From Branchiostoma lanceolatum (taxonomy: Eukaryota; Chordata; Leptocardii; Amphioxiformes; Branchiostomatidae), in assembly GCF_035083965.1 (NCBI RefSeq), contig NC_089722.1:30244958-30308957 (forward strand): DNA of 64,000 nucleotides, in the 5' to 3' direction. Shown piece after piece: positions 21,986 to 61,334 of this stretch. The first letter of the stretch is position 1, and each line of letters begins with the position of its first letter. The notes beneath the pieces are model-generated. The model was not told the DNA's origin. It saw only the letters and a program-made list of their open reading frames with translations, and ran no database searches. The position numbers and the translations under genes were made by a program.

Positions 21986-22114
21986 ATTTGTTCTCAAGTT
22001 GTTCTCAAGTTTGTTCTTAAATTGTACATCTTGGTATCTATTTAATCGGTCATTGTAAGCTTCTGCGTATTTGTCCATTGCTGACCTACAGACAAGGGGG
22101 ATCAACCGTTAAGT

Positions 22115-23125
22115 ATGACAGTCAGTGTGTTGTTGCTGCTCGTTACGTGGGGTTCTCTGTGGTCGGATTGTTCTTGTCTGCCAGCTGAATGTGTGATACG
22201 GGAGCAGCGGTACATTGGAACATCATTGGTTGATTGTAATTTTCTAAACCTCACCACCATTCCTGATGGCATACCTCTCAACGCTGGGCGATTTACTGCC
22301 GCGTTTAATAACATTAGAAATGTCACCTACCTGCCGCAACTACCGCAACTGTCTACACTGGACCTAGGTATGAACTCAATGGAGTCGTTTTCCTGGATGT
22401 CTTTGCGTGCTCTGCCGCGTTTACGCATTTTACGTCTAAGTATAAACCGACTACGTCACGTGCAGCTGGAAAGCGTCATCGAGCATCTGCCGGAGCTGAA
22501 AACCGTTGATGTAAGTTTTAATAAACTTGTGTCGATCTCTCAGTTCGAACTTGGGTGGCCACAGGTGACCATGGCTTGGATCATGGGAAACCCCTTTCGC
22601 TGTGACTGCGACCTCTCCTGGCTGATTGACAAGCTGGCGTGTTTACAAGCCTGTATGGGGAGAGGCAAGGAGGCCTGTTGTCTGTCGTGTTCAGCCTGCT
22701 TTCTGGCTGATAACCTGAAAAATGCAGGCAAATCTGTCTGCCACAGTCAAAGTGGACTGAATCGGCTACCTTTATCAGACGTGTCCAGTCAGCAAATGGG
22801 TTGTGGACCACACCAGCCGACCACAAAAGTTGCCATGGTTACAACGTATGGGGCTCAGACTCAACCCGCTGACCAGTCACAGGCTATGGTCACCAGCATC
22901 GTGCACGGAACTGCCCGCTATGACGTCAGACCCAAACCAACAGAGCATGAAAATGGTGCAGGTACAATTGCCTGGAATCCTACCAACGGAACAAGTGGTA
23001 ACTCTACAACTCCCCAAAACATTCTACTCAGCGCCATGGCAGGGACAATGAGTTGCCTTACCCTGATGATATTGTGCCTTCGTCTGTACAATAGGAAATG
23101 CTACAGCTATACTCAAGCTGGCTAA
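22115..23125 (+). CDS. LRR single-pass membrane protein, short tail (LRR paralogue 1)
   Basis: A 336-residue protein of the extracellular LRR class. Residues 1-22 form a signal peptide rich in Leu and Val. An N-terminal cap with few cysteines follows (about 23-45), then about four to five LRRs (LSTLDLGMNSMESF, LRILRLSINRLRHV, LKTVDVSFNKLVS). The C-terminal cap starts at NPFRCDCDLSWL (about residue 160) and carries an unusual cysteine-dense insert (CxxxCx6CCxxCxxC). A Thr/Ser-rich stalk leads to a membrane segment near 305-325 and a tail of about 12 residues. The ATG at 22115 precedes the signal peptide directly. AATAAA lies at 23199-23204, 74 bp after the stop. The paralogue at 25609 has a very similar ectodomain but a different membrane segment and tail. 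The ligand is unknown. I see no intron, but an upstream noncoding exon is possible (CTACAG at about 22086). Confidence 0.85.
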   Translation: MTVSVLLLLVTWGSLWSDCSCLPAECVIREQRYIGTSLVDCNFLNLTTIPDGIPLNAGRFTAAFNNIRNVTYLPQLPQLSTLDLGMNSMESFSWMSLRALPRLRILRLSINRLRHVQLESVIEHLPELKTVDVSFNKLVSISQFELGWPQVTMAWIMGNPFRCDCDLSWLIDKLACLQACMGRGKEACCLSCSACFLADNLKNAGKSVCHSQSGLNRLPLSDVSSQQMGCGPHQPTTKVAMVTTYGAQTQPADQSQAMVTSIVHGTARYDVRPKPTEHENGAGTIAWNPTNGTSGNSTTPQNILLSAMAGTMSCLTLMILCLRLYNRKCYSYTQAG

Positions 23126-25008: not shown

Positions 25009-25608
25009 AGACTTCTTCTCAGATTGGTCTTCAGGTGGGGGTGTAAGTCAATTTCCCAAGGAAGGGAAGAGGAAATCACATTGTCTGTGCTGCTGCTCAT
25101 GGATATGTATATCTTTCTTGCAAATCTTATCAGATTCATTGTGTGATGTAGAAGCAAAACGCACAAAGACACAACAAAAGATGCAGAGAAGCCCAACCTT
25201 AATGGGAATGTAGATATTATTTGTGAGCTTTTGATATGATGAGACGAAAGAACTAATCTTGAAGTAATGTTGATAACCCGAACATAAAAACTATGATGCA
25301 TTTTGTTTGTTCCCGTACCCTGAACCAAAGCAATGTGGTACGTACGCCAAAGTTGCAGACATAATGGAAGATGGACTTGAATAAATATGGTCATCCTGGT
25401 ATGTAAAAGGATATGACATAAATATATCTGCTTCAGACAGAAGTCGCTCAATCTCACTGTCGCGCGTACCGTGGCACATTGCTGTTACAAACAAACACAC
25501 AAACGGGTAACTTTGTACCTTTAAGTATCTATTTAGAACGAAGTTATCGGAAGTATCTACATAGTTTTCCGTTGCTGGCCGACAGTCACGGAAGACCAAC
25601 CATTGAAT

Positions 25609-28600
25609 ATGAAAGTAAGTGGACTGTTGCTGTTGGTTACGTGGGGTTCCTTGTGGTCGGATTGTTCTTGTCTGCCAGCCGGATGCGTGATACGGGAATC
25701 GCAGCTGGATCGGACATCAATTGTCGACTGTAATTCTCTGAAACTTACCACGATTCCCGATGACATACCGCCCAATGCTGGACAATTTACTGCCATGTAT
25801 AATAGCATAAGACATGTCACCTACCTGCCGCAGCTACCACGACTGTTAACACTGGACCTAGGATATAACGACATGGAATCGTTTTCCTGGATGTCTTTGC
25901 GTTCTTTGCCTTTTTTACACAATTTGCGTCTAAGTGGAAACCGACTACGACACGTGCAGCTTGATAGGGTCATTGCGCATCTGCCGAAGCTGAAAATCGT
26001 TGATGTAAGTTCTAACAAACTTGTGTCGTTCTCTCAGTTCGAACTGGGGTGGCCACAGGTGACCTGGGCCTATATCATACTAAACCCCTTCCACTGTGAC
26101 TGCGACCTCTCCTGGCTGATTGACAAGCTGGCGTGTTTACAAGCCTGTCAGGGGAGAGGCAAGGAAGCCTGTTGTATGTCGTGTTCAGCCTGCTTTCTGA
26201 CCGCTAACCTGAAATATGCAGGCAAATCTGTCTGCCACAGTCCGAGTGGACTGAATCGGCTGCCTTTATCCAACGTGTCCAGTCAGCAAATGGGTTGTGG
26301 ACCACACCAGCAGACTACAAAAGCTGCCATATCTACGGCGAAGACTAATAGTCAACAACAGAGCAATGACACTTCTCCCATCAAACGTTTCGAAGATACG
26401 ACCAAACTAGACCCGAAACGGAAAAGAACACAGCAATCCTACACGAACGATGTCTCGACAATGATGAACCCTACACAGAACACTACAAAGTCGCCTGATA
26501 ACAGCAGGGATATGAAGAAAAGAGAGACTGGCAAACTTCCGGCTCTCTACATCCTCACAATTGTGACGGGAACCATTCTGGCCTTGGCCTTTATCATCAT
26601 CATCATCATCGTCGGAATGAAGATAAAGAACAAACTATGCTGCAACTGCCGAGAAGAAGCCAACATGGGTTTGTTTGTTTGTTTGTTTATTTGTTTGTTT
26701 GTTAGGATACCAGTAGCAATTCTCCCAGTATGTCCCCTTGTAAAATCAGACATACCAAAATTATATCAAATATTCATTACAATAAAACACCTTTAGTGAC
26801 GATTTCAAATACAGATTTAAAATGCACATGATTTATACTTGATGAACCTTGTCTAAAACTAGAATAGTTTACGACTAACTAGAGTTCCACGACCTCATAC
26901 CTTCGCCAAATGATTTTAACCTTTATGACTGACGTATTAGGAGTGTTTCTCATCAATAATAAAACACACCAGTTGATTGTCTTAGAATATGACATGTCCA
27001 AAGTATCAGCTTAACAAATTATGAGCTTAACACAAAGGTTATGCTCATATTTATCATCAATTATGCAAAAGAGGCCCTTATTAACATAATTTGATATCAA
27101 CGATGCTCACATTCACATAACTTCCCGATGCCACAAAAAAAGTATTAAAATGTATGAAATTGCCGTCATTTGCCAGTGTGGAATAATACAAGTTACTCAT
27201 TAAGTATGCAAATTAGGCCCACATTTGCATATTTTCTATGTATTAACAGTCCTCTCTTCCTCAGTTACAATTTGAATAGTCATATCATGGAACAAAGCGG
27301 ATTTTTAAAGTTGCCTCATTAATTATGCAAATTAGAATCTGATTTGCATAATTATCATCCAATCATACTAAGCATCACACAAGCTATCCACATACCAAAA
27401 ATGATGACCATCCATCAAGGCCATCTTGTTATAGTATTTTCTCATTAATTATGCAAATGAGGTCTTCATTTGCATAGTTTATATCAATTAATATTTCTCT
27501 CTTCCTCAGTTACATATGCCACATGTTTCAGAGTCCTATCATGGAATTTGGCGGATGTATAAACTTTCCTCATTAATTATACAAATTAGATACTGATTTG
27601 CATAAGAAGTGTCTTATCATGGACATCATCACTCAAGCTATCTACTTACCAAAAATCATTACCATCCATCAAGCCCTTCTTGAGTTATTCCCTTTCAAAG
27701 TCAGACGCAAAACCTGCTCCTGCAGTTCAAAAAAAGCCACTAGGGGGCCCAAACCCACACCACTTACTCTCTGTCCAAAGATCTATCTACCACTCAAAAA
27801 TAAGTTCCATAGCATGTCCGGAACACGAGATATCAAAACAGGAAGTTCCGCTGCAGTACCGTAAGAAGCCGCTAGGGGGGCCAAAATCTAATCGTTTTTA
27901 GGTCTCATCAAAACCTACCAACAGACCAAATATGAAGACAATCCATCAAAGCATTCTCGAGTTATGGTGGTCCACTACAGACACACACACACACCCACAA
28001 ACGCTACCCTCTGCATAACCTTCTCGGCGAAGGTAACTAGGTAAGGTTACACATCACCATAGTCGACCTAGATATATTATAAACAAGTCACAGAGAGGCT
28101 AGAGGTCTGAATATTACAGGTTTACAGCACTAAGAGTTTAGTGATATCTTAGTCTTTACTGAATTGGAACAAAAACACTCCAGTACATCTGGTCGTACAT
28201 TGTATATTTGCAGGAGCTGTCAATCACGGATACCCAGCTGTCAACCAAATCACACCACCAGCAGCCAACTCTCTCTGCCAAGACACCGCGGATGAATATG
28301 ATCTGCATTACTACGGTTATGCATATGATTCTGCTAAAAATGATGAAGACCAAACTCCGGCACCAACCCTAAACTCGACACACCAGGGCATCTCTGAAGA
28401 AGGCTTGAATCCAGAACATCTAGCCGTCTCGGAGAACGCTCATCACTTCATAGGATCTACACATAGCGGGCACTCCCAAGTGACAACTGAAGAAGATCCG
28501 CATTACTGCAATGATGATTTAGCAGCCATGGATGGAAGCCAAAGTCCGGAACCAACCCTAAACTCGACACACGAGGGCATCTCTGAAGAAGGCTTGGATC

Positions 28601-31592: not shown

Positions 31593-34500
31593 TCACATCT
31601 CTCCAAAGGCCCCAAACTCTGTTGCAATAGCCAGCCCCAGGAATGCGATGTACACGACGATCAGGTAGATGCCGTACCATCTCCCCACCTTGAACTTGAA
31701 CGCTGGGATGAGGATGAGTGAGGAGAGGAGGCTGAACCCTAGTGACCCCGCCAAGACGGACTGGAGCATTGTTCGCTTCAGCTGAAAGAAAAATGAGTCA
31801 AATCAAACTGTATTAGCTTCAGAAAACAACAATAACACAATACAGTAAAACCTGAATATAGTGACCACTCAAGGGACTTTAAGAAAATGGCCACAGACTA
31901 CTAGACAAGTGATCACTATAGACAGGATTGTTAATGCTTGATTCAATAGGAAACATAATGTATTCAGTATCAGGGATAGAGACACCAGCCTAATCATAAT
32001 TTTCAGGGACACCGGCCTTAAAGGGAAGTCATTCAGCACCAAGGACAAGGACACCAGCCTTAGTGGTGTGTTATTCAGTACCAAGGACAGGGGCACCAGT
32101 CTTAGTGGTGTGTTAATCAGCACCAAGGAAAGGGGCACCAGCCTTAGTGGTGTGTTAATCAGTACCAAGGACAGGGGCACCAGCCTTAGTGGTGTGTTAA
32201 TCAGCACCAGGGACAGGGACACCAGCCTTAGTGGTGTGTTAATCAGCACCAGGGACAGGGGCACCAGCCTAAGTGGTGTGTTAATCAGTACCAAGGACAG
32301 GGGCACCAGCCTTAGTGGTGTGTTAATCAGTACCAAGGAAAGGGGCACCAGCCTTAGTGGTGTGTTAATCAGTACCAAGGACAGGGACACCATCCTTAGT
32401 GGTGTGTTAATCAGTACCAAGGACAGGGGCACCAGCCTAAATAGTGTTATTCAGTACCAAGGACGGGGGAAGCGGCCTTAGTGGTGTGTTATTCAGTACC
32501 AAGGACAGGGGCACCAGCCTTAGTAGAGTGTTATTCAGCACCAGGGACAGGGACACCAGCCTTAGTGGTGTGTTAATCAGCACCAAGGACAGGGGCACCA
32601 GCCTAAATAGTGTTATTCAGTACCAAGGACGGGGGAAGCGGCCTTAGTGGTGTGTTATTCAGTACCAAGGACAGGGGCACCAGTCTTAGTGGTGTGTTAA
32701 TCAGTGCCAAGGAAAGGGGCACCAGCCTTAGTGGTGTGTTAATCAGTACCAAGGACAGAGACACCAGCCTTAGTAGAGTGTTATTCAGCACCAGGGACAG
32801 GGACACCAGCCTTAGTGGTGTGTTAATCAGCACCAAGGACAGGGGCACCAGCCTAAATAGTGTGTTATTCAGTACAAAGGACGGGGGAAACGGCCTTAGT
32901 GGTGTGTTATTCTGTACCAAGGACAGGATCACCAGCCTTAGTGGTGTGTTAATCAGTACCAATGACAGGGGCACCAGCCTTAGTGGTGTGTTAATCAGTA
33001 CCAAGGACAGGGGCACCAGCCTTAGTGGTGTGTTAATCAGTACCAAGGACAGGGGCACCAGCCTTAGTGGTGTGTTAATCAGTACCAAGGACAGAAACAC
33101 CAGCCTTAGTAGAGTGTTATTCAGCACCAGGGACAGGGACACCAGCCTTAGTGGTGTGTTTATCAGCACCAAGGACAGGGGCACCAGCCTAAATAGTGTG
33201 TTATTCAGTACCAAGGACAGGGGAAACGGCATTAGTGGTGTGTTATTCTGTACCAAGGACAGGGGCACCAGCCTTAGTGGTGTGTTAATCAGTACCAAGG
33301 ACAGGGGCACCAGCCTTAGTGGTGTGTTAATCAGTACCAAGGACAGGGGCACCAGCCTTAGTGGTGTGTTAATCAGTACCAAGGACAGGGGCAACAGCCT
33401 TAATGGCAGGTTTTTCAGCGAAAGATTACTTCTATGCCCTTTCCCATTGAATTGGTTTTGGGCCATAGTTAGTACTGACCATCAGAACTGGGCTACAGAA
33501 TTAGAATATAAAATTAGAATATCTACAAAAAGACGACACGTTCTTCAGAGAAACAACTTGAAGTCTGTGCATATAGAATACAACACGGGGTATTCCGTAT
33601 CACCCGAGGTACCAGCCCGACCACAGGTATGATTGCTCGACAGCTGTAGGCCGGAGTGAGATCCAACCCGCGGGAGGGCTGGGACTGAGGGTGATGCGGA
33701 ATACAACGTGTTATGTCATACCCACCCGAGAAAACACATCTTTCAATACAGAATGCACCAGAAGTTGAGGGAGTTTTGTGTCCTCGAACAAAAAACTGTA
33801 ACAAAATTGATTCCAACCTCTCAATCCGGTATTCGAATTTTCGACGGGGGCAACCGGCGCGCTCGAAATGCATTCTAAATATTCTATGGAAGCCTGTGTG
33901 ATGCAACTCTAGAACCTCATGTGAAACAGATAGTTATCACACGGTCCGGAACACCCGTATCAGGCCCAGGCATGACATAAAAGTCTGTACAGCAGATGTA
34001 GACTTACCGGGAAGTTCCCTCCATTCTTGATGGTAGCTATTGTGCAGGAGATGCCTATACCCATCAGCATGTCTGTTAGGGGTTGAGGACTACAACATAC
34101 CCTGCTTTGGAGGGTTGAGGCACTGCTTGTTATAGTTAACATTACATCTTATACAATGTAACTACATTTGAATCTGCACCGCTGTATTTGTGTAAGTAAA
34201 AATACTTACCCATACTTAGCCAGTTAAGGCAGAAATGTACAATAAAGGTCATCATATATTTCCATTTGATTGTCAATGGATAACTGCAATACATAATTTG
34301 CCAAGTTTGTTTGTTTGTTCATCTACTACTATTTCACCAAGGGAAAACATATTGCTTAAAAAGGTGCTTTTCAATGTGCCCTGGGGGAGCAGTTATACAA
34401 GAGGAATAAAGAATATCAACAAATATGTACCATAACCTATAATTGTAAGTTTTGAAAAGGATACTGAAGAGTGGTCCCCCGAAGCAGGCTGACACACCCA

Positions 34501-37500
34501 TCCTCGGGAATCCCTGCCTGGCCATGGCAGTGTCTGCTACCAAGTCTGGAAACGTTCATGTCCGGATAAGTTATTTGTAAACAACCAGAGAGTTATAATA
34601 CCTAGCCGACATTTTGGTGACCATCTGTCACCTTCCTCTGGTTTTTGTTTACACTGCATCTAGGTGTCACTGCTGTAGTGTGAGGAATTCAGTCCTAAAC
34701 TTGACCAAGTTTATATACCCCTCATCACAGTTCATGACTGGAGTTGATTTCTGATGAATGCATCTGTAGTAACTCTCTGATTGTGTACTTTGTTGTCCAA
34801 TGATTTGCCAACTAAAGGAAACTCTTCATGAACGTCAATGTCCGTTTGAAAATGTTGATGGGGTTGTTGATGCATGCAGCCACTGGCTTTATCATTGTGC
34901 CCATATCACAGCTGCAGAGTCAGTGTGACTGCAGCACCGAGGTTATGTCCTTGAGACTAACTTTAACATGTAGGGAATCAGAAGGTAAAGCTGAACATAG
35001 AGCTACATTTACTGTGACTATCACACAGGTAAGGGATGTCCCTACAGCTCAACTGGTAGCAACTTCACAGTTAAGCTCATGGCTCCAAATAGTTGCTTAC
35101 TGGCCCAGTCCTGGGGCTGCACCCGTCTTTCGAAGGGACGTAAAATGGGGGTGCCATGTTCGTGGAGGTGCATCAAGCACATTCAAGGAGAAGGGCTACC
35201 GACCTCTCCCTGTAAAAATATACCCTGCTACTGAAGCAGCGAGGAAACTTGCTGTCCTATGTGCGACTAGGAACTACAAGGGTCTGAGCGAACCTACAAA
35301 CAATCATACAGGCCAACCTACCTCCAATGCTGTTCCCCCAGGCAAGCAGGGTCAGACCCAGGATGGCATCACTGATGTTGAAGACGAGACCGAACACCTG
35401 CAGCAGGTTCACGATCTCGTTAGCTGTGGCGTAGATCCAGACCACGGACACAACAAAAGCCAGGTAGCCAAAAGCCTGGAAAGAAGGAAACAACATCTGA
35501 GAAACAATTCAAATGTTTCATAAACTTTTGACAAACTTTTTTTAGATATCTGTCAAACAGGTTTTCTCCACTTCCTATTTACAGACAGTAGAGACTAAAG
35601 TCAGATGAATAACGCAAGTATAGAAAACCTTTTAAAACAATGTTGATCTGAGGACGCGGACACCAGCCTTAGTTGTGTGTTATTCAGCACCAAGGACAGG
35701 GACAACAGCCTTAGTGGCGTATTTTTCAGAGCCAAGGGTCACCAGCCTTAGGGGTGTGTGTTATTCAGCACCAGGGACAAGGGCATCATCCTTAGTGATG
35801 TGTTGTTCAGCACCAAGGACAGGGACAGCAATCTTAGTGGTGTGCTATCCAGTACCAAGGACAGGGGTACCAGCCTTAGTGGTGTCTTATGTAGTGTTTT
35901 ATTTGAGGACAGGGGCTCCAGGTGATGTGTTGTTCAGCACCAGGGACAGGGGCACCAAACTTAGTAGTGTGATGTTAAGCACCAAGGACAGGGGCAAATA
36001 CCTTGGTGGTGTGTTATTCAAGGACAGGGACACCAGCCTTAGTGGTGTGTTATTCAGTACCAAGGACAGGGGCAACCGCCTAAGCAGTGTGTTGTTGAGA
36101 ACCAAAGACAGGGGCAAAGGCCTTTGTAATGTGTGTTATTCGGGAACAGGGACACCAGGTGATGTGTTCTTCAGCACCAAGAACAGGGACAGCAATCTTA
36201 GTGGTGTGCTGTGCAGTACCAAGGGACCTCAATGGTATGTTATTCAGCACCAGGGACAGGGCCTTAGTCAGTGGTGTGTTATTAAAGGACAGGGACATCA
36301 ACAAGTTAGTGGTGCATTATTCAGCACCAAGAAAGGGGCACCAGTCTTAGTGGTGTGTTATTCAGCACCAGGGACAGGGACACCGGCCTTAGTGGTGTGT
36401 TATTCAGCACCAAGGACAGGGACACCAGCCTGAGTGGTGTGTCATTCAGGGGCACCGGCCTTAGTGGTGTGCTATTTAGCAACAAGGATGGGGCACCAGC
36501 CTCAGTGGTGTGATTTTCAGTACCAAGGACAGGCACACCACACTCATCAAAACCTTTTGTCCTTACCCAGTGGTAGATGGGGTAAGTTTCATCATTGGAG
36601 GTGCAGAAGACGACGATAGCTAGCAGCAGTCCGCACACCGCTACAACTGCCCACACTGGCACCATACCTCCTATCTTGTCAAAGCCATCTGTGGATCATA
36701 AGAAAAAAGATTTGCTAGGGTCGTGTAGCAAGGTTAAACAGATCATGCAGCGGTCTGGTTTAGAAAAGGATCACCAAGTTCATGTTTAGTTCAGAATTAA
36801 TCACATTACTGTGAATTCTTTTACTTTTGCTGTGGTTTTATTTCATGGTAAGAGAGAACTCGAGAAAAGGAACAATTCTGCAGTCTGGTAGCAATGCAAT
36901 GGAAACAAATATTTGCGGTGTCATGAAGTTGAGGTAGAGAGGTCACCATGAAAACCGATAAAACAAAACCACCGCAAAAGTTTTAAAATTTACAGTAGTC
37001 AGCAAAATTAGAGCATATTCATTTTTAATGACTCTGTCTATAAACAAACATACAAACAAAGAGATAAATTGCAAAAACTGGGATAACTCTTACTCACTAT
37101 TGATGGCAAACACCACAAAGAGGGGTCCAGTGATACAGTGAAGACAGTTGAGAGGGCGGTTCCAGTTGTGTTTATCCTCTTCAAAATCCACAATAGACAC
37201 TGTCAGGTTCAGGACCAGCTGAATGGGGGCCTGGGGTCAAACACAAAATAACAAACTTTACACTCAATATCCTACTCTACAGCATAGTTGGCATCCAGTG
37301 TGCTACACTCATTTCTTAATGACACATATACTCATCTGAAGAATTGTGGCATAGTGCACTAAATGCTACAAAACTACACCTCTTTTAACTATTAAGGTTT
37401 ATGGTGCCTTGAACCTTTCCATGGTCATTGAAGGTTCAATCAAAACAAAAGGCCTTATAATCAATCTGCAAAACAGCAACTAGCAACAGTCCATTGTATT

Positions 37501-40500
37501 GGAAGGACTGACCATAACACATTGACAGGAGGAAAAGTGATGTAGAATAACTACAAATCACATCTAAAAGTAGCACTCTTATTGAGATCAAACCCTGACC
37601 TAAAGTTTGTAAAGATGTGACAAAAAAGAACTACATACACAACACACATACATGTATTATCTACAAGTGGCACGCTTATGGAAAATCAGACACTGACGTA
37701 AAAGAATTTTCACCTAAAACAACAACACAGCATACCTACAAGTGACAGTCTTATTGAGATTTACATTTGTAACACTGACCTTGAAGACTTCGTAACCCTT
37801 GCCGAACGCGCCCTTGCTGCTCCACCCTGCAGTGTCAATGGGGTTCAGCCCCTCCCACAGTTCCGTCCGAAATGCTAACGGAGTACAACACCCAGCATCC
37901 TCCTCTCTGATGCTGCCCAGCAGAGGCATTCTTTCTCCTAACAAACCAGATGTTTGTTAACTCAAAAGATTGAAGGCCTTTCATCCTATTTATCAGAGAT
38001 GCTTAAGTATTCATACAGATTTTACAGGAGATTTATGGAATACATACGAATCTTACTGAATTCATGCAATCAACTACTAAGAAACATGTACATGTTTTAC
38101 AGCCCTAGACGGCAACTGCTTAGCGACCAAAATTGGATTTTGATTATTGATTAAGTTGAATATGATACAAGATGTAAAAGTATGATTTCAAAGACAACAA
38201 AATCCACAAAACATTAAACAAATTTTCATCATCTATGAAATTTGTTGAGTGAAATTTTTGGTCACTCAGTGGTCACTCTGGTGGAAAGGCTGCATCAGTC
38301 CTAGTCCTAGTCATATTATATTATCTCCCCAAGCACCCAGACCAATCAAACGCATTGAAACTCAGATTCGAATCAGCCATTTCCCGACAAATCCCTTTCT
38401 ATCCCTTTCCAAATACGCCCGCGATTTAACGTTTAGAAAAAAATAGTTTCTACTACTTTTCTCTAAACCTTAAGTCGCGGACGGATTCAATCACTTCCAC
38501 AGTGCCAAAATTGTCAATCTGAAAACATCTTTTGGAAGCTAACACCTTCCACCATCTCACTGGCGAGTTTGTTTTGTCAGATTTAGTCGTTAACGCAACT
38601 TAGAAAGCGATTTCTCGGGAAATGGCTGATTTGAATTTGAGTTTTAATGCGTTTGATTGGTCGGGGTGCCAAGGTAAATCAAGCTTCTACCAATTCACCC
38701 CGACCAATCGAATCAGATGAATCGCATTGAAACTCAGATTCGTATCAGCCATTTCCCAACCAATCGCTTTCTGACTTGCGTTAACAACTACATCTCACCA
38801 AACAAACTCGCCAGTGAGATGGTGGAGGGTGTCAGCTTTCCAAAGATGTTTTCAGATTGACAATTTTGGCACTTTGGAAGTGATTGAAAGTGACCGCGAT
38901 TTAACATTTACAGAAAAGTAGTAGAATCTAGACGTTAAATCGCGGTCACTTTCAATCACTTCCAAAGTGCCAAAATTGTCAATCTGAAAACATCTTATTT
39001 GGAAAGCTGACACTCTCCACCATCTCACTGGCGAGTTTGTTTGGTCAGATGTAGTCGTTTACGCAAGTTAGAAAGCGATTTGTCTGGAAATGGCTGATAC
39101 GAATACGAGTTTCAATGCGATTCACGTGATTCGATTGGTCGGGGTGCAATTCTACCACTGATTGTGGAGGCGGACCAATCGGCCCCCAACAGGAAGAGAT
39201 TGTGTGTAATAGGCTATCCTCTCCCCTAAGCAGTATAAAATGCCCACCTGAGTTACTGAAGGAGCTCCTGCTGAGGTCCACACTAGTCTGAGCCTGTAGG
39301 GCGGGGTTGACTCCAGCCTGTGCCCCCAGCAGTGGGCCAACTGTCACCCCTTCTGTCACCTGTAGAGTTCCTAGGATAGCCACAAAACACCAAAATTAAC
39401 ACTCGGTGATCATTCCTCTCAAATATGTTGGAACTTTACATGGACATGTAGTCAAATCAACTCAATCGCTCATAAAAATCTGAACAATGAATAGAGATAT
39501 TTCAATTTTAAGAAGATATGTAACATCTACTATTAACGTAATTCCAGCAATGTACATAATTCCACCATCCTGAAAAAGATACGTCCAAACATATCTCCAA
39601 CCAACAGTGTATATCTTAACTGTGCATAATATACCTGGGGGTGCTGCACTAGAGATCTCTCAAATCCACTGTTTTTCAAAGTGGCGGATTAATGTTAAAG
39701 GAGGTTACATGTACGTAAATCAACCCCATCACTCATAAAACTCTGAATAACAAATAGAGACATTTCAGTCTCAAGAAGATATATACCTTTGCCTTTGCCT
39801 TTGTGCCAAATTTCAACTTATGTGATGAAAAAGATGAAAAAGATGTTCTAAAACCGCTTGCATTCACTTTTTGAATCCCCCATGCATGTATCTAAATGTG
39901 TAGTTCTTAAAAATTGCCTCCTTGAAAGTCATCATAGCACGTCCAATGAAAATACAAATGTACTTGTTACGACTCACCTTCAATAATACCAGCTCTGAAA
40001 GTCTGTGATTGGATGCTGCCATTGTTATCATCAGTAATTACTGGTATTTTTGAATCATCTGGCAATAAACAATTCATTGTGATCGATTAAATCAGTGATT
40101 AATTCAGCAATGCATATCATTTGACAAGTAATCATTGTGACAATCATTGGCAAATTCATTATGAGAAAGGAAAATATAAACATCAAAAAGGGCAGTACAA
40201 AATCACAACAATAACTCAAGTTAAGGGCGGTTTTACTGGCTATACAGATACAGATACAGAATGAAGACAAGATATCTGAAGAATTTTTAATTCATCAAGC
40301 TCATATTAGGTACTAGATTATGTACTTAAGTTCAACAAAATAAATTTCTGTGATTAAATACATATTCGATAAAATGTCATGAGTTCCATTTGGCAAGCTG
40401 TACCTTTGACCGCCCTTCTAGGGTTGACATGTTTTCCTGAAGGTTGTCTGAAGGACAGATACTCCTCATCTGGATCTGCCGATGTCCCGTTTATACTGAA

Positions 40501-43500
40501 GGAAAATATAAGAGATAAGAATGACAAAGAAAGCAAAAAAACCCAGATCAAGTCATCAGCAATGGGATAAATGTACTCAAATTGTAACAAATTACAAAAA
40601 GAAATGACTGATAACTATCGTGCTAATTGCTGACAAACGTGACAAAGTTTACAACAAAATAAAAGTAAATTGAAAAGAGACAGGAGACATCACAACTTGT
40701 GTCCTAATAATTCCTTTTTGTAAATCCTGAATGAGGCGTTATAAGACTTTAATTTTGGAATTTTAACTTTAAAAAGAAAGAAATGAACAATTCAGCTTTC
40801 TTTGCATGAATACCTACTTGTAGTTGTTGCTAAAATCTGTTGGAATTCTTGATTGGCTCTGAGACGCCTTGAGTCGTGATTGCCTTATTTGTCGGCCAAC
40901 TAGGACAACGAACACATACACAACATACAGACCAATGAAACCTGCAAAAACATAAACAAAACAAAATGATACATCATGCTAACTACAAATCCAAAGGATT
41001 TGAACCATCAGAAGAATAACATAAACATCAAATGCAAGACAAATGATTTACAAAAATATATCAGTTCAATTACAAATTTGTTGAAAAGTATAATACAATG
41101 GGACATGAAGCTACGGAAACTAAATTTATCAAAGGAAAAAACATGGTTCAACTTGCATAGTGAACAGTGACAGTTGAAGTTAACTAAAAATCATGCTAAC
41201 AGACCTTTCAGGCTACAAGTAAAGAAGTGAATATTCTTGTCAGTAAAGGGCAGCACATTGGCAAAACGTAAGTTTTTAAGGTCGCGGTCGTGTATTTAAG
41301 GTAAAAATCTCGTATATAGGCTCATATAAAGAGATATCTTATGCAACGGCTGTTACACCGATGCAACGTTGACCAAAGAGAACAGTTATGATAGGTTTAA
41401 ATAGCAGGCTAATTACCATATATGCATTGCGTTCTGCCGACGTGCTGTAAAGGGCTAAAGGTACTCTACATTGTCAACAAATGACTGCATGACTGTGTGA
41501 ATGAAACCTACCTATGGCCTGAGGTAAACTGATATTCTTGAACCACAGGACGCACCACGTCCAGAACGCTGCTGCTATGTAGAACACGACATCCCGCAGG
41601 AACGGGCGCTGCATCATCTCAAACGGTGTCAAGATTCCAACTGCCCCAACGACGACTGTGGTCACAAACACACCAGCACCTATGGGATAAAATAACCAAA
41701 GACATGTACAAATATATAGAGAGTTGTCATTGGACTGATAAGATAACCTATTGGTTTCACCTCAGTCTGAGGCATCGCCAAAAGAGACACATGTACATTT
41801 GTGTTACCAACGACTAGGCAGAAAAAAAGATAACTTACTTCTTTCCTATAGACACACAATTACAATTTGACTACAAACAACTAGGAAACAGAATTTGGTG
41901 TTGCCAAATATGTGTAATTCCCATTTTCCTACTGTACTGTTACTATCAAATGAAATGAAAACAGCATTGATAACTTATCATATTGACCTGAAGCAGAAAG
42001 CAACATTGTAGTGTAGTTGACATAGAAACTATGAGGATATAGACACAACAAGACATCAAGATGAACAACTGCAGCATAGGGCCATATCACCAGTGAATAC
42101 CTGGTCTAGTTTCAAGCTTTAGTCTGTTCCAAATGATACTTACCAAATAAGGCTCCGATGGCGAGCCCAGCATCCCCGCCCTTAGAGTTAGTGATGGCGG
42201 CAACTGCGCTGAAGATGTCGGGAGCTCCATTTCCAAAGGCAAGAAAAGTTACACCTTGAGAAGGAGTTAAGGTTCTCTCTCCATTTCTGAACAAACTGAG
42301 CTTCCAACACTATATAACATTTAACATTCACAATTAAAAGGACGATTTTGTAAAAAAATGGTACATGACATAAATTCTATTACCCATTACAGTGAGAAGA
42401 AAGCAATATTTTGTCTTTTTGGGTGCTCTTTTAACTTGAGGCACCTCCTAGAACATGGGATGCCCATTTTTTTCCCTTCCAAAAGATTGGTGCAGCCCTT
42501 GAACCAAGATGTTCTGACCCAGGATTGAACCAGGGTCTCCCAGTAACCAACTGATTGGAGCCATGAGCTCAACTGTGAGGCTGCTACATGTATCAGTTGA
42601 GCTACAGGGACATACAAACAGACTGTCATTATAACCGCTATAATTCATCTACTGTCTGCATCTATGATTCATGAAAGTTTACACATGTAGAGGATATAGC
42701 GATGTTCTGGCTCAGTTTCAGAGTGTCGGAGATCACCTTCAGGGCTGGGCAAAAACTGTGAGAAAAGAGGAGAAAGTCATTGAATTGAAATACATATTTG
42801 ATGCATTACTATGTTCCTTATATAAACGTAAATAACAGGAAGAAGTATTGTTATCTATAAATGAAAGTGGAACTCACTAGTCATCCGCTGTCACACCCAG
42901 TAGCACAAACAGTACCAGTAGCCACAGGAACTGTAAATGCAGAAGTAAAGAGAAACAGAAGTCAGGTTTTCATAAACAAGCAATATTCATAAAGTGCAAC
43001 AGAGTAGTCAGTCAAAGTGTATGTAAACTGAGGCATGGCAGAAGCTTCATAAACTTTCAAAACCATTAACTTACAACCTTTCATTAAACAAAACAGTGTG
43101 TAACGATTATATATAAGAGGTGTATTTTAGTCAGAAGAATAAAATGATTAAGACCAATTATCATTGGTTATCGTATATCAAAGATTAGGATTATCAAACA
43201 TCATATGCGATGGCTGAGTACTACTGAAAAATGCGGACACACGCTCATGAAGACCCGGAGCTTACTAGTACATTGTAGTAGCATCGAGGAGGCCTTCTGA
43301 CAAGTGCCAATCATTTGCCAATCATCCTAAACCGACGACAACCCAAACATCAGAGACTAATTTCATCAGGTTGGTTAATGACATGGATATTGGAGTTTTC
43401 TTTTTTCACAACCAGTAAATTCTCACCTGCTGACGTTTTGTTTAGATAAGAAAGTCAACACCAGTGATGAACCGGGACGAGGGGGAATACAAGCTTAGCC

Positions 43501-45185
43501 ACGTTTGGGATTGTGTTCTCGCCGCAAAAGCGCCACCTTCATCGGCTACATATAGCGGCGAGAACTAACTCCAGCCAGATGCTCTGAAAAAGGTGTCTGA
43601 CTGACACCGAAACGTCAGCCGGTGAGGATTTACTGGTTGCGAAAAAAGAAAACTCCAATATCCCAACCCAAACATCAATCAATGTGAACCTCACCAGTAT
43701 AACGAGAGCCAGTGGCACCAGGTTAGGCAGGGAGCAGTAGGGGAAGTGTAGGTAGTTAATGAACCCTTCATCTATTCCACAGTCCGACGTGTTCCTGATG
43801 AACTCACACTGAAGACTGGAGTTTAGCTTGTGGTAGTCACGGCACTATCAGGAGGAAAAAACAATATGTCAGCTGCAGCTTTATGTAGGAACAGTCAAAT
43901 TTCACATGAATGGTCAGCAAAACTGCGACAATAGTTTATATATTTATGTTTTTCATTCCAGTGCACTAGAAATTATGAGATTTATATGTGGATAACAATG
44001 AACCAATCATGGTTTTAACTTTTACAGAACTAGAGAAATACTTTGGGGATGTTAGTGCCTGTTGAAATTAAAATATATTTAGTTTGCTTCCATAGGAATA
44101 TCCATGTTTTTTTTCATATGCTATAAATGTGATTGATTAATATGTTGTTCTCATTGTCTTTGGTTATAATTCATTTGACAAAAACTAGGTATTGAGTTTG
44201 AGAACATCAAAAAGAAGAAATCTGCTGCACAATTTTTCTAATTACCGTCCCATCTCCAAAGCTTTGCTATAAATAAATAGCTTCACAACCAAATAAATCA
44301 GAGCATGATAAAATCTTTTCAATCAATAAACTGACCTTCCAAAGTGCTCTATTTAGTCCAAAATTAATCTGGACGTTGTTCCTTGTCTTGTTGAGTAAGC
44401 AAAACATCTCACAAATGTTGCTACTTTGATCACAGCAAACAGTTGACATAATGTCACCTGACTGTCGGTTCAATAGATTTCAAGGTAGGGAGGAAATGGA
44501 GTGTTTGCGTTTGAAACATTTTAGGGAGTAAGCAGGCCGAAGACAGAATAAGCATTTTCGCGGTAGTTTAAGTTGGCAGTGTCAGGACTGAAGAGCTTGA
44601 CGCAAAAAAGTTATGTGACCATTAAACCACTGCAAAAATTTAACATTTACAGTCTCCTGCTTCCCGGCTGTCAAGACTGATGACTTGTTTTCCAAACATC
44701 TTTGTCTGCTAGTTCAAAGGTCCGGGGTTTAATTGTGTTGCCTTTGCCAAGCTACACAGTGATCTGGACAATGTACCAATAGTCCACAATTTGTCCTGTA
44801 AGTTTGGGTAAGGACTACAGGGACTGACAGTTTGGTGGCATAAATACTGACAGGAAGTTCTGTGTTTCAGGTTCAGTGAAAATGAGAAATGTACACTGTT
44901 TACAAATTTATTATTGGCATGAAGATATTTACTGTCAACCACAACAAAGTTTGGGTTTACTATATATAACGTTAGTACTAAACCAGCATCATAGAAGTCA
45001 ATAACCGGGGATCTTTCTTTTGTCTTTTAGAACCCTAACATTATATGTAAAACGGATCATAGATTGTCAGAAAACTTCCTGTTGCTTACCTCAACGTCGC
45101 CTGTCGGTTCTGTTGTTGGAATCAGAGCTGCCACGCCGGCTAGTGTCTGTCGCAAAGTTGTGTTCAGAAGCTGTGCTCCCATCAT
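31593..45185 (-). CDS. Mitochondrial-type Na+/Ca2+ exchanger NCLX, complete 17-exon gene
   Basis: Exons in transcript order: 45185-45090, 43844-43695, 42930-42878, 42755-42698, 42255-42144, 41679-41512, 40941-40818, 40495-40404, 40058-39978, 39370-39248, 37937-37780, 37230-37098, 36688-36567, 35475-35322, 34545-34465, 34072-34008, 31781-31593. They total 1959 nt, a 652-residue protein, with matching phases throughout. Seen: a cysteine-bearing N-terminal region (residues 33-82), the alpha-1 repeat with GVTFLAFGNGAPDIFS (120-135), a polar loop (about 235-375), the alpha-2 repeat with AWGNSIGDLVADTA (535-548), then ARQGFPRMGVSACFGGP, and a hydrophobic C-terminus ending TEFGAFGEM. The paired acidic motifs GNGAPD and GNSIGD are hallmarks of the Ca2+/cation exchanger family to which NCLX belongs, which exports matrix Ca2+. 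All introns look GT-AG except intron 4 (listed separately). The start has two adjacent ATGs. Confidence 0.9.
31955..33415. repeat. 42-bp minisatellite array in NCLX intron 16
   Basis: About 34 copies of a 42-bp unit of the type TTAGTGGTGTGTTAATCAGT followed by ACCAAGGACAGGGGCACCAGCC. Unit variants (TTATTCAGC, AAATAGTG, GGGGGAAGCGGCC) recur in blocks, indicating internal duplication. Because 42 is a multiple of 3 and the unit lacks stops in one frame on each strand, long ORFs appear on both strands (14-residue repeats STKDRGTSLSGVLI and LINTPLRLVPLSLV). These are shadows, because the array sits in an intron. Confidence 0.95.
35025..35205 (+). repeat. tRNA-derived SINE copy (decayed)
   Basis: Contains an A-box-like CAGCTCAACTGG and then CACAGTTAAGCTCATGGCTCC and GGGCTGCACC. 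It matches the better copy at 42425-42630, which is in the opposite orientation. The B-box region is partly lost here. It lies in NCLX intron 14, just outside the 35322-35475 exon. Confidence 0.6.
35655..36540. repeat. 42-bp minisatellite array, diverged copy in NCLX intron 13
   Basis: The same unit as the 31955-33415 array (CACCAGCCTTAGTGGTGTGT, TTCAGCACCAAGGACAGGG), but more diverged and with shortened units. It starts about 180 bp beyond the acceptor of exon 14 and ends about 25 bp before the donor of exon 13. Confidence 0.9.
36855..37005. repeat. Short dispersed repeat (CACCGCAAAAGTTT type), copy 1
   Basis: Shares GCGGTG...GAGGTCACC...ACCACCGCAAAAG...TTTACAGTAGT with segments at 44535-44655 and 56870-57010. 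An unclassified interspersed repeat in NCLX intron 12. Confidence 0.4.
38330..38672. mobile_element. Foldback (palindromic) element, copy 1
   Basis: The left arm begins ACCAATCAAACGCATTGAAA and returns as the inverted right arm ending GCGTTTGATTGGTCGGGG. The interior shares GTGCCAAAATTGTCAATCTG and CCATCTCACTGGCGAGTTTG with copy 2. No ORF is present. A MITE-like, non-autonomous element in NCLX intron 10. Confidence 0.75.
38695..39150. mobile_element. Foldback element, copy 2: near-perfect palindrome
   Basis: Arms of roughly 215 bp (about 38695-38912 and 38938-39150) are inverted copies of each other, from CACCCCGACCAATCGAATC to GATTCGATTGGTCGGGGTG. The centre is a short loop (ATTTACAGAAAAGTAGTAG region) between CGCGATTTAAC and GTTAAATCGCG. 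It carries the same family sequence as copy 1, placed in tandem in NCLX intron 10. Confidence 0.85.
42256..42697 (-). other. NCLX intron 4, apparent U12-type intron with AT-AA ends
   Basis: On the minus strand the intron begins ATATCCTCT (42697-42689), a near match to the U12 5' splice site consensus ATATCCTT. It contains CCTTAAC (42272-42266), a match to the U12 branch site, about 11 nt from the end. To keep the reading frame and restore the family motif NIA|GVTFLAF, the intron must end in AA immediately before GGTGTAACT. Ending at the following AG would bring TAA in frame. There is no GT at the required donor position. Confidence 0.6.
42425..42630 (-). repeat. tRNA-derived SINE copy inside the U12-type intron
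   Basis: Read on the minus strand it has an A-box-like TAGCTCAACTGA and a B-box-like GGTTCAATCC about 75 bp later, followed by GGGCTGCACCAATC. This is the arrangement of a tRNA-derived SINE. The second copy is at 35025-35205. Confidence 0.6.
43385..43663. mobile_element. MITE with about 55-bp terminal inverted repeats
   Basis: The left end GGATATTGGAGTTTTCTTTT continues to CTGACGTTT and is matched almost perfectly by the inverted right end, which finishes GAAAACTCCAATATCC. The roughly 170-bp interior has no ORF. It lies in NCLX intron 2, about 30 bp from exon 2. Target-site duplications are not evident. Confidence 0.8.
44535..44655. repeat. Short dispersed repeat (CACCGCAAAAGTTT type), copy 2
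   Basis: Contains GCGGTAGTTTAAGTTGGCAG, ACCACTGCAAAAATTT and ATTTACAGT. Related to 36855-37005 and 56870-57010. It lies in NCLX intron 1. Confidence 0.4.
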
Positions 45186-45886: not shown

Positions 45887-45983
45887 GCCCGGTTAGCTCA
45901 GTCGGTAGAGCATCAGACTTTTAAGCGTTACACTCCTGTGTGAAGCTATCTGAGGGTCGCGGGTTCAAGTCCCTCATCGGGCG
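45887..45983 (+). tRNA. tRNA-Lys (anticodon TTT) with 24-bp intron, copy 1
   Basis: Cloverleaf: acceptor GCCCGGT pairs with ATCGGGC, discriminator G. The A box TAGCTCAGTCGG and B box GGTTCAAGTCC are intact. Anticodon loop CTTTTA|A is interrupted after position 37 by a 24-bp intron (about 45925-45948), giving a 73-nt mature tRNA. The T stem GCGGG/CCCTC has one mismatch (C50-T64). A T4 terminator follows within 15 bp (TTCTCTTTTATT). The T-stem mismatch makes it slightly less certain to be functional than copy 2. Confidence 0.85.
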
Positions 45984-46189
45984 ATTCTCTTTTATTATCC
46001 ACAACATAACAGATCGTTCAAGTAACTAATTAACATCAGATTAGCAGAGCTTTATTGTGAAAGTTGAACAAGATAGTCGAACTTTGTTCGGAAATGTATG
46101 GCAAACTGCTGAGAGTAGGTTGATGAGGCAGTGGAAATCCTAAACTAGTTATATTGATTAATAGTTCTTGGGTTGTTGTTTTAAATGTT

Positions 46190-48848
46190 GCCGATGCATA
46201 CTCTGACGTCAACCTTGACAACTTCCAGTACGCAGACGACGCAGCAGCCTGGAAGACCGGAGAAGATGTCCAAGCCGTGAAGAAATGTGTAGAAGAAGGG
46301 ATCTCCAAAGTGATGCTAAACTGGTGCCCACAATGGAACATGAAGGTTGAGCCAAGCAAAACCAAAGCCATGATCTTCCCCCCTCCACATGCAGACAAGA
46401 CTCATACTGAGGACTTGAAAGTTGACAGCAAGAACATACAACTGGTTGATGACTTCAAGCTGGTAGGAGTAACCCTGGACCAACAGCTCACCTTCAGCAA
46501 TCACATCACAACAACGAGGACAAAAGCATTCAAGGCCCTGAAAGCCGTAAGCAAAGTCACACAAGCAAAGAAGAATCCTAACCAACAAGCCCACATCCTG
46601 CTTTACACAACACTAGTCAGGCCCATCCTAGACTATGCTTCGGAATGCACAATCACCGCCAAAGACAAACTGGAGAAAGCCTACTCGCCCATACAAAGAC
46701 AAGCACTGATAGCAGCAACCGGGTGCCTCGAGAGAACAAGCACTGAAGCTCTGGAAACACTGGCAGGAATCCCACCGATCGACATCCACCTCAGTTGCAG
46801 ACAAGCCCAGGCGTACCTAAGAATGACCTCAAAACACACAGGAAACCCCATCTACGACACCATATCTCACATGAAATCTCAAAAAACAACAACCCAGACA
46901 GGATCCCCGCTCCACCTACTCCAGACAAGACTCAACGAGCTAAAGGGAGAGATGGATGAAACCACCGTAGACAAAGAACCATACTTCGACGCCAGACTCC
47001 CCCCTTTCACCATGGGCAGTATAACTGGAACTTTCGCAGCAACGACCAACACCACAGAGGGAAAAGACAAGGCACGTGAAGATATCCTGGACACTCTACA
47101 ACACATCTCAAACAGCAAGGAACCAACAACCGTCATTTTCACAGATGGCTCAGCGCTAGGAAACCCAGGGCCCACTGGGTGCGCTGCAGTCATCTATGAA
47201 AGATGGGGGGTCACTGAACCTTTCGCAGTACGCAAACCTGTAGCAGCCAAGTCTAACAACTATGAAGGAGAACTTGAAGGACTTCACCTTGCCATCGACA
47301 CCATCAGCAGAAGACAATCCACTACCACTAACTTAAAGGTCCTCATACTCTGCGATTGCAAGGCTGCAATAGATAGTGTCTTAGGAGTACAGCACGCTCC
47401 TTCACAGCGTCGTAATAAATTGACTTGTTCCACTGAATATGCGAGTGCGAGTCTTTTATGCAATTCACTTTTTGGCCGCATGAGGGCTACTATAGCGGTT
47501 TGTTCGCAAAGACAGCCCTGGGACAGAGAGCGTATTTTTGGTGCGCGAAGCATGCTGGGAGGACGGTAGTATCCTGGGGACGTGAATGTATGTGGGAGAA
47601 GGCCAAACTCGCTACCGTAGCAAACTCCCTTCCGTGACATAACTCCCCTCTCGGCAATCTAGAAGGGTAATCTAACACCCTCGCAGCGCCACCAAATTAG
47701 GTACATTTTAAAGTTCCCTTTGATATAACGTATCACCATTGTGGCAACATTTTACCCCCGAAATAGTAAACTTTCGTCTTGTTTTCGCCTCGGTAACTGT
47801 AGAAAATACTAGCTAACTAGTGTACAGTCACACGTTGTATAGAGACGCACACAAGAGTCACACAACTTACGATTTGCTAAGGTAATTGAGACAAACACAA
47901 AACAAAACAAAATGACAGCCGTGGATTCCATATAGTTTTATTTTGTGTATTGGTTGAGCCCACGATCTAAACCTATGGCTTCTTCGCGGCGCTGGGTACG
48001 AGCGTGGGAGTACAGCTAGTAGACGCCTACAACAGCCTGGTGCACACCATCCGCAACAAACTACGGGCACTCAAACTGCAAGGTCTCACCATACAGATCA
48101 CCTGGTGCCCGGGACACATGGGGATCCCTGGAAACGAGATTGCAGACAAGGAAGCCAAACTGGCAGCAGACGAAGCTACAAACATCCAATACACATCTTG
48201 GACGAAACATCAAGCCATGAAGCACATTGAAGCACAAGCACATGAGAGATGGAACAGAAGGATGAAGCTGAACATGAGAAGTGAACACATGCAGAAAATC
48301 GCCACTAACATGAAAAAGAAAGGCAGAACACATGGAAGAAGAAACACACAAGTAAACATCAATCAGCTAGTGAGCGGCCACACCAGACTCAACGCCTACC
48401 AAAACTGGAAGGACCCAGAGGTCTCACCAAACTGCCCAAACTGCGGTGCTCTGGAGACCACCAGACACTACCTGTACCACTGCCCTCGGTACGAAAAGGA
48501 AAGACAACACATGCTGCTAGAAGCTGAGAGCTTATACGAGACATACAACATTGCAGAGGGAAGCAGAGACACGGACATCGTCACTCTAGCTGGGATGAGA
48601 GAAGACCTTTCCGAGACAATCAACAAGCAGATGTACTTAGCTCTCTCCCGGTACATCGAGAGCACGCACAGACTCGATGTGCTCTCCTAGAAACACCTCC
48701 AGCAGTTCGCAAGCACAAGCCACCAAGAGTTAAACACCTAGAGAGACATCAGCCTCGTATGAACCAAGCGTAACACAGCACCAAGAGACCACGTCTAGCG
48801 ATATAATAGACGTTAAACAAGGACAACAACAACAACAACAACAACAAA
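46190..48848 (+). mobile_element. 5'-truncated non-LTR retrotransposon, interrupted by a DNA transposon
   Basis: The element begins near the reverse transcriptase catalytic motif YADD (46229-46240), so its 5' part is missing. It continues through the thumb region into an RNase H domain (TDGSALGNPGPTGCAAVI, GELEGLHLA, ILCDCKAAI, then ITWCPGHMGIPGNEIADKEA). It ends with a zinc-knuckle-like CPNCGALETTRHYLYHCPRY and a stop at 48690. A 3' UTR of about 130 bp ends in a (CAA)n tail at about 48821-48848. The coding frame is broken only by the insertion at 47393-48006. RT plus RNase H plus CCHC suggests an I/Jockey-like clade; the clade is not established. Confidence 0.85.
47393..48006. mobile_element. 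614-bp non-autonomous DNA transposon with 9-bp target-site duplication
   Basis: Flanked by direct repeats GGAGTACAG at 47384-47392 and 48007-48015. The ends are inverted repeats: CACGCTCCTTCACAGCGTCG on the left, and CACGCTCGTACCCAGCGCCG when the right end is reverse-complemented (16 of 20 match). Removing the element and one duplication rejoins the RNase H frame. No transposase is present. A 9-bp duplication fits Mutator-like elements best; an 8-bp duplication, as made by hAT or P elements, cannot be excluded. Confidence 0.85.
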
Positions 48849-49260: not shown

Positions 49261-49357
49261 GCCCGGTTAGCTCAGTCGGTAGAGCATCAGACTTTTAAGC
49301 GTAGTACGCCTATGCAATGTGATCTGAGGGTCAGGGGTTCAAGTCCCCTATCGGGCG
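49261..49357 (+). tRNA. tRNA-Lys (anticodon TTT) with 24-bp intron, copy 2
   Basis: The same cloverleaf as copy 1, with a perfect T stem (AGGGG/CCCCT), intact A and B boxes, and a different 24-bp intron after position 37 (about 49299-49322). The intron begins AGCGT in both genes, then diverges. A T4 terminator follows (CTCTTTTATC). This is likely the better functional copy. Confidence 0.9.
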
Positions 49358-59375: not shown

Positions 59376-61334
59376 TCAGTAAACTCTTGATGTCTTGACT
59401 GCCTTGAGTGGTTTTGCAGTGAGGGTGCATGTACGGATGATTGCACTGCTTTCATTCATTCCTCCGGGGAAAGCTGAGAGTCTTTCCCATTGGTTCTTCT
59501 TGATGTTGTAGCTCAAGACCACGCCTCTGTCGCAGAAGTTGATGATCTTCCCTCCCATCGCCCTGGGGACGCGCTTCACGTTTCTCGACTGGGCCGCTCC
59601 GTTAGGCGGGAGCGTTATGCAGTCTGTCCACTCGCCCGATATGACGTTGTACGTGGCGATTTTCTGCTGTCCCACCACGTAAACGTGGCTGTGGTCCGCG
59701 ACCAGGTCTCCGAGAGGCATCCCCGACAGTTCGAACTTCATGTCCGCCCACTCCGCGTACTTCATGGTCTTCCACTGGTTGGTGTCGGGGTCGTAGCACA
59801 TCAGCCGACGGTTCTTGTCATCCCAGCACGACGGGTGCGCCGACAGGTAGATCTGTCCGAGACACACCGTGGACGTGGGGTTGACCACGCCCGTCGGGAG
59901 GGGGCACGCGAATTCCCAGGTGTCCGTCTCGATGTTGTAGCACTCTACACAGTTTACCTTTGGTCTCTGGCAGACCATCCCCCCACTGTCAGCTGCAAAC
60001 CCACCTATGGCATACAGGTGTCCGTCAAATGCCGTCAAGGCATAATTGTACCTCGGCATCAACAGAGGGGCGAGTTCGGACCACGAGTCTGTCTTGGTGT
60101 CGAAACAAAAGACTCTTCCAGACGGCTTGCTTTCTGTCACCATTTGCGAGTTGAAGGATCGACCGCCTGCGATGTAAATGCAGCCGCCGGTTCCAGCGAT
60201 TTCAAAGTGTTCTGTGGTCCGTAGCTCGTCTGGTAACGTCGTCAGCTGTACCCACGTGTCCTTCTTCAGGCTGAAGTAGTACAGGCCGGGCGTCTCCGCC
60301 CAGGATGTGTTCCCGATGTACTTGCTGGAGACAGCCGCGATCAGTTGCTGCGGAAGGTTCTTCAGATGATTCAGGTGCTTCTGTGGAAGTTGGTGAAGAA
60401 TGATGTGCCCGGCTTCGTCGCGGGGGTCGATGTGGGTTGCCATGAAGTCGTACACCGTGCTGACCAAGTCTGTGAGACCGTACGCCTCCGCGATGATGAG
60501 GACGTCACAGCAGTTCTCCATGTCCAGGTGGATGTACAGAAACTGTGCGCACGCGTCGAGGAGGGTCTTCACCTGGAGGAAGCTGGCCACAGCGAGCACG
60601 TCCTGCACGTTGTCTCTCTTGATGGCGATCTCGGAAGTGTACATGAAGTCTAAGATGCCTCGGAGACCGCCGGCCGTCACGCCCTTCAGATCTATCGCAT
60701 CCTGCGCGCTCTCCTTCATTCCACATGTAAACATGGTGTGAAAGTACATGCTCCCCGCAGCCAGCACGTTCTTGTGCGCCTTGAAGTTCCTGCGGTGGAC
60801 GCGGATGCAGATGTCGGAGAACTTGCGCTGCCGTCGGTAGGTCTGCAGCCTGGCCATGACCATCCTCTGCACGTCGTCTTTCACCGCCGCCAGCAGCTCT
60901 GGGTAGACGTCCACCTCGACCGGGGCACCCTTCTTTCTCGAGGCGCCACATGTGTTGGCATGCAAACACACCGGAATTTGGAGCTTCTCACAAGCACAGA
61001 CAAGGTCAGGCACTTGCTGGTCCTTGAAGATCTCAGGTTCATAAACAAGGGTGTTTAGAGCTTTGTATTCATTGGTGGTTAAGTCAGGCAGCTCGACGAC
61101 GTCCGGTCTCTCGCTCGTCAGCCCCGACTCGACGATCGCCTGCAGGTATTCGCTGCAGGCCGCCAGCACGTTGCGGTTCGCGGCATACTTCTTCCCCTCG
61201 ACTAAGACGTGGACGTCACTGAAGCTCTCGTCTTTGAGGAGGCAGCTGAGGTTCTGGAAGAGGACCTCTCGGTGGTGGCGGTTGATCTGCTTCTTGAGGA
61301 GCGGGGCGACGCTGCCGGCTTCGCACGTTGCCAT
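59376..61334 (-). CDS. Kelch-like protein with two BTB domains, uninterrupted ORF
   Basis: 652 residues. The start is the ATG at 61334 in a strong context (CACCATGG); the reading frame extends six codons further upstream but without an ATG. Seen in order: BTB 1 (about 33-125, FSDVHVLVEGKKYAANRNVL), BTB 2 (about 168-270, FSDICIRVHRRNFKAHKNVL), a BACK-like helical region (about 275-340) and about five Kelch blades (345-620; CIYIAGGRSF, HLYAIGGFAA). BTB-Kelch proteins typically recruit Cullin-3 and present substrates through the propeller. A tandem BTB pair is unusual, as most have one. The gene is antisense within the first intron of the smoothelin-family gene. A TTCTCACAG acceptor on the minus strand just 5' (about 61445) suggests an upstream noncoding exon. 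Confidence 0.88.
   Translation of the reverse strand: MATCEAGSVAPLLKKQINRHHREVLFQNLSCLLKDESFSDVHVLVEGKKYAANRNVLAACSEYLQAIVESGLTSERPDVVELPDLTTNEYKALNTLVYEPEIFKDQQVPDLVCACEKLQIPVCLHANTCGASRKKGAPVEVDVYPELLAAVKDDVQRMVMARLQTYRRQRKFSDICIRVHRRNFKAHKNVLAAGSMYFHTMFTCGMKESAQDAIDLKGVTAGGLRGILDFMYTSEIAIKRDNVQDVLAVASFLQVKTLLDACAQFLYIHLDMENCCDVLIIAEAYGLTDLVSTVYDFMATHIDPRDEAGHIILHQLPQKHLNHLKNLPQQLIAAVSSKYIGNTSWAETPGLYYFSLKKDTWVQLTTLPDELRTTEHFEIAGTGGCIYIAGGRSFNSQMVTESKPSGRVFCFDTKTDSWSELAPLLMPRYNYALTAFDGHLYAIGGFAADSGGMVCQRPKVNCVECYNIETDTWEFACPLPTGVVNPTSTVCLGQIYLSAHPSCWDDKNRRLMCYDPDTNQWKTMKYAEWADMKFELSGMPLGDLVADHSHVYVVGQQKIATYNVISGEWTDCITLPPNGAAQSRNVKRVPRAMGGKIINFCDRGVVLSYNIKKNQWERLSAFPGGMNESSAIIRTCTLTAKPLKAVKTSRVY

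Follow-up and report, generated by a model that had tools for sequence, protein, structure and literature searches.

A putative U12-type intron with AT-AA termini in an NCLX (SLC8B1)-like exchanger gene of Branchiostoma lanceolatum

The window analysed here is a 64,000-nucleotide stretch of Branchiostoma lanceolatum DNA (contig NC_089722.1, positions 30,244,958 to 30,308,957). The coding span of an NCLX (SLC8B1)-like Na+/Ca2+ exchanger gene lies at 31593..45185 on its minus strand. An exon model built from protein homology plus splice sites gives, when spliced from the window, 17 exons and a CDS of 1959 nt (652 aa) that stays in frame and carries a single terminal stop; exon count and length agree exactly with the initial annotation. 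The gene is predicted to encode an NCLX (SLC8B1)-like, mitochondrial-type sodium/calcium exchanger because its translation matches Pfam Na_Ca_ex (PF01699) in two stretches (1.4e-54), and because its best solved relative is the NCLX chain 9ps1_B (E 2.8e-135). The protein is closer to NCLX than to NCX (SLC8A), with 455.5 bits to 9ps1_B versus 24.2 bits to NCX1 (8jp0_A). The alpha-1 and alpha-2 motifs GNGAPD and GNSIGD are both present in the translation, and both alpha repeats align with 9ps1_B (residues 28-266 and 379-648), whereas the middle loop (about 267-378) lies outside the alignment. Among the 16 introns, 15 are GT-AG, and intron 4 alone has AT-AA ends.

A satellite-like tandem array with a 158-nt unit (133.7 copies, 96% matches) covers positions 1-21108 and runs to the left edge of the window. 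Two minisatellites with a 42-nt unit reside within the exchanger gene, at 32033-33406 in intron 16, where long open frames are present on both strands, and at 35651-36540 in intron 13. Intron 10 (38333-39146) contains overlapping inverted repeats that resemble a fold-back transposable element, with arms of 214 nt, 149 nt and 68 nt that are 86%, 92% and 97% complementary, respectively. Related copies of a dispersed element are found in opposite orientation in introns 4 (42428-42625, minus strand) and 14 (35020-35200, plus strand), and their arms, 64 and 48 nt long, show 77% and 88% complementarity. The copy in intron 4 (GTAGCTCAACTG, GGTTCAATCC) is similar to a tRNA-derived SINE, and by eye it has a B-box-like stretch that is one base short; in the copy of intron 14, the second part is missing. 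A strict tRNA A/B-box pattern had no match in the intron 4 element and matched only two tRNA genes.

These two tRNA genes, identified with Rfam, are at 45887-45983 and 49261-49357 on the plus strand, are 97 nt each, and are identical in 83 of 97 columns. Most of their differences are in the middle of the gene, in an intron-like stretch after a TTT anticodon, which by eye suggests tRNA-Lys; ARAGORN in its bacterial setting found no tRNA genes. Other open frames were classified by eye. Those at 46127-47569 and 47971-48690 (plus strand) resemble the end of a reverse transcriptase with RNase H as encoded by non-LTR retrotransposons, a 681-codon frame at 59376-61421 (minus strand) appears BTB-kelch-like, and frames at 22085-23125 and 25537-26796 (plus strand) appear leucine-rich-repeat-like.

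Intron 4 (42256..42697, minus strand, 442 nt) follows exon 4 (42698..42755), which ends ...AAC ATC GCT (N-I-A) in phase 0, and precedes exon 5 (42144..42255), whose first codons encode GVTFLAFGNGAPD. Both exon boundaries come from the splice model and the alignment with solved NCLX, which is gapless at exon 4. In a numbering derived from exon lengths, the phase 0 intron falls between Ala119 and Gly120, seven residues ahead of GNGAPD. The initial annotation had the intron interrupting the codons just before this motif; its coordinates are as described, but it was slightly misplaced relative to the codons, none of which is split. The U12-type assignment of this intron draws on the splice model, the match to known signals, a scan of alternative joins, and an estimate of chance occurrence.

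The intron starts ATATCCTCT and finishes ACCTTAACTCCTTCTCAA. Its 5' splice site (42689..42697) matches TATCCTT in six of seven places (intron positions 2-8), the sole mismatch being C for T at position 8, and the pattern [AG]TATCCTY is found as ATATCCTC at the homology-defined exon end. The branch site CCTTAAC (42266..42272) agrees with its consensus in seven of eight places (ACCTTAAC versus TCCTTAAC), with the branch A 11 nt ahead of the final base of the intron. Both ATATCC and CCTTAAC, which are published as U12-type consensus strings (PMC3033335), are found in the intron. Its 3' terminal dinucleotide, read from the sequence, is AA (42256..42257), such that the homology-defined join has the AT-AN form (an AT start and an end of A plus any base). 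Exon 5 opens with G, which together with the final A of the intron forms an AG one base past the AA end. The limits, the U12-like 5' end and the CCTTAAC about 11 nt from the 3' end that had been proposed for an AT-AA intron of U12 type were thereby reproduced exactly. The pyrimidine fraction ahead of the 3' end is 0.71, which lies within the 0.53-0.94 seen in the gene's 14 ordinary introns and does not discriminate.

U12 signals were judged by plain consensus-match counts instead of a weight-matrix score. The 14 ordinary introns reach at most four of seven matches to TATCCTT at positions 2-8 of the 5' site, and their best branch-like sites at most six of eight when the branch A is allowed to lie 6-39 nt ahead of the intron end. 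Intron 4 has six matches at the 5' site and seven at the branch site, and intron 15 has seven at each. In the 64-kb window, RTATCCTY occurs six times on the two strands, and two of these six occurrences are exactly at exon ends of the exchanger gene; the other four are at +52679, +57819, -42040 and -25414. Using frequencies in the gene span, which include the two sites themselves, the expected number of introns among the 16 that start with RTATCCTY and carry CCTYAAC 8-20 nt from the end is 2.4e-5, and the two observed are more than chance would give. With intron base composition, the expectation for the same two signals is 2.4e-6. Both expectations assume independence and were calculated once the motifs were already known. 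CCTTAAC has 141 copies on the minus strand of the window, and this count is an unfair background because most of them fall in the 158-nt satellite.

Intron 15 (34073..34464, minus strand, 392 nt), on which the initial annotation was silent, appears to be a second U12-type intron, in this case with GT-AG ends (GTATCCTTT...TCCTCAAC-CCCTAACAG). It begins GTATCCTTT and ends TCCTCAACCCCTAACAG, with TCCTCAAC as its branch-site string; the 5' site matches in seven of seven places, the branch site in seven of eight, and the branch A is 10 nt from the end. This phase 1 intron interrupts codon 569, which belongs to the alpha-2 region. No other of the 4729 in-frame joins scores as high as its model join, which reaches 180 versus 178 for the runner-up. 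Two of the 16 introns of the exchanger gene thus look minor-type, one A-type (intron 4) and one G-type (intron 15), and the presence of the second strengthens the case for the first. If both are real, we infer that the animal must possess a functional minor spliceosome.

How far the protein dictates the AA end was addressed by shifting donor and acceptor by up to 60 nt to either side and scoring the resulting in-frame, stop-free proteins against the alpha-1 region of solved NCLX. Two ordinary introns of the gene served as controls. The model join of intron 3 ranks second, at 229, behind a join that lacks splice signals (230), and that of intron 5 shares first place in a three-way tie; therefore, the protein score alone is no proof of a join, and splice signals are also needed. 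For intron 4, there are 3514 in-frame stop-free joins, and two tie at the top score of 275, with AT-AA and TA-CA ends. The TA-CA join is one base off the AT-AA join and encodes an identical protein. The AT-AA join, by which NIAGVTFLAFGNGAPD aligns gaplessly with NVAGVTFLAFGNGAPD of solved NCLX, is alone among the top-scoring joins in beginning on the U12 consensus, and TA-CA ends are not a known splice-site form. The initial annotation held an AA end to be the only one that keeps frame and the motif NIA-GVTFLAF. The AT-AA join does keep both, but "only" is slightly too strong, given the protein encoded by TA-CA.

Joins with accepted ends (GT-AG, GC-AG, AT-AC or AT-AG) score lower; 66 of them are in frame and stop-free, and the best reaches 255 versus 275. 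This best join has AT-AC ends (+2/+8); it reduces NIAGVTFLAF to NIAIFLAF and starts with ATCCTC, which is no U12 site. A TA-AG join, a one-base shift that gives NIASVTFLAF, scores 269 and is not strongly excluded by the protein score; TA-AG ends are not a known splice class.

Introns that resemble intron 4 have been described in other organisms. According to the available text of PMC4176328, the 5' A of U12 introns can join any 3' base, with AC preferred, because the branch point weighs more in recognition. AT-AC, AT-AA, AT-AG and AT-AT are listed as A-type endings in the consulted portion of PMC8280824, where a strong dependence of A-type introns on CENATAC is reported, with its depletion in human cells affecting 92% of A-type versus 24% of G-type introns; in the corresponding portion of PMC8329584, CENATAC serves AT-AN introns. 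With the A-type AT-AN introns as they are presented in PMC8280824, intron 4 shares an ATATCCTY start, CCTTAAC near the 3' end, an AT start, and a variable last base. It differs from them in no tested feature, although AA is a minority ending in the class.

Among the conserved minor introns of animals, ~3.8% have non-canonical ends according to a pan-eukaryotic survey (PMC10639083, main text). In the same text, AT-AA, with termini identical to those of intron 4, ranks first among non-canonical endings of minor introns in both animals and plants, accounting for almost 75% of such endings in plants and less than half that share in animals. The initial annotation, which had called AT-AA rare, thus overstated its rarity. 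A human intron set includes one AT-AA intron, and SLC8B1 is not mentioned with it in the available text of PMC10853796.

One alternative to an AT-AA intron concerns the last base itself. A sequencing error or a private variant could hide a true AC end and thus an ordinary AT-AC U12 intron, and a single sequence copy underlies the AA reading. AT-AC is also far commoner, accounting for 26% of human U12-type introns, versus 5.2% for all ends besides GT-AG, GC-AG and AT-AC together (PMC7367187, Table 2). However, AT-AA introns as a class should be far more frequent than one-base errors exactly at this site, and if the base is a variant, the intron of this individual remains AT-AA. We therefore consider this explanation improbable.

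Use of the AG that is completed one base downstream (CTCAAG/G) would make the intron AT-AG, with AT-AA a minor or unused form. This AG is the first past the branch site, and AT-AG is among the A-type endings listed in the consulted portion of PMC8280824. Nonetheless, splicing there shifts the frame, and the product, ...NIAV* with a stop at codon 121, would wreck a gene whose reading frame otherwise stays open for 1959 nt and whose product aligns with NCLX for most of its length. It is thus very improbable that this AG is the one mainly used, and if the exchanger gene is functional, AT-AG splicing would be a side product at most.

A U2-type GT-AG intron could be drawn from a donor 13 nt downstream (CAT/GTGTAAAC) to the same CTCAAG/G acceptor, replacing one Gly with five residues (NIA-ISSTC-VTFLAF). 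This join is in frame and stop-free, and of the six canonical-type joins listed it is the GT-AG join with the highest score, 238, versus 275 for AT-AA. It would, however, place four extra residues, missing from solved NCLX, within the conserved alpha-1 repeat; its donor, GTGTAA, matches GTRAGT in three of six places by eye, and the ATATCC-CCTTAAC pair would be left unexplained. We regard such an intron as highly unlikely.

If the last A were edited to inosine ahead of the second step, the intron would act as AT-AG at the same position. This explanation has a precedent in the human A-to-I editing documented for GT-AA (last A) and AT-AG (first A) introns in the available text of PMC4176328 (Table 2), but is extremely improbable here, as A-type introns have no known need for editing and the fold of intron 4 with 16 nt of exon 5 is unremarkable (z -1.40, with 8 of 100 shuffles equally good).

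Intron 4 is thus very probably a true minor-spliceosome (U12-dependent) intron that belongs to the A-type (AT-AN) subtype, judging from its sequence signals. These signals, the reading frame and the protein consequence of the AT-AA join are directly observed in the DNA, and from them we infer that the minor spliceosome excises intron 4 in the animal with AA as the main end used. U11 and U12 snRNPs would jointly recognise ATATCCTCT and CCTTAAC. As much of the recognition falls to the branch site, the last base of the intron would be loosely specified, and the second step would favour the A located 11 nt beyond the branch point over the AG formed with the following base. The predicted spliced product is full-length NCLX with the alpha-1 repeat unbroken. 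The AA end requires no new mechanism, because the 5' A of U12 introns can join any 3' base and AT-AA is a listed A-type ending.

The overlapping AA and AG ends (CTCA-A/G) might also constitute a one-base splicing switch, in which AA yields full-length NCLX and AG the stop at codon 121. We view this idea as unlikely. If it is true, use of AG would presumably lead to mRNA decay, and the amount of the calcium exchanger would be governed by how accurate or active the minor spliceosome is.

The main text of the pan-eukaryotic survey (PMC10639083) does not name SLC8B1, Branchiostoma or the lancelet, and the available portions of PMC8704543 and PMC3033335 say nothing on amphioxus minor introns. A literature search returned no report tying SLC8B1/SLC24A6 to minor introns, and gene lists of this kind are often in supplements and databases beyond such a search. 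Vertebrate SLC8B1 is suspected to appear in published minor-intron gene lists.

Intron 4 is a rare but known intron variant, as the AT-AA class has already been described. Gene predictors restricted to GT-AG, GC-AG and AT-AC introns would misjoin the exchanger gene beside an ion-binding motif, and annotations derived from such predictors are likely to be wrong at intron 4. With two minor-type introns, one of them AT-AA with a rival AG one base away, the gene is a small natural system in which to examine the choice of the last intron base by the minor spliceosome.
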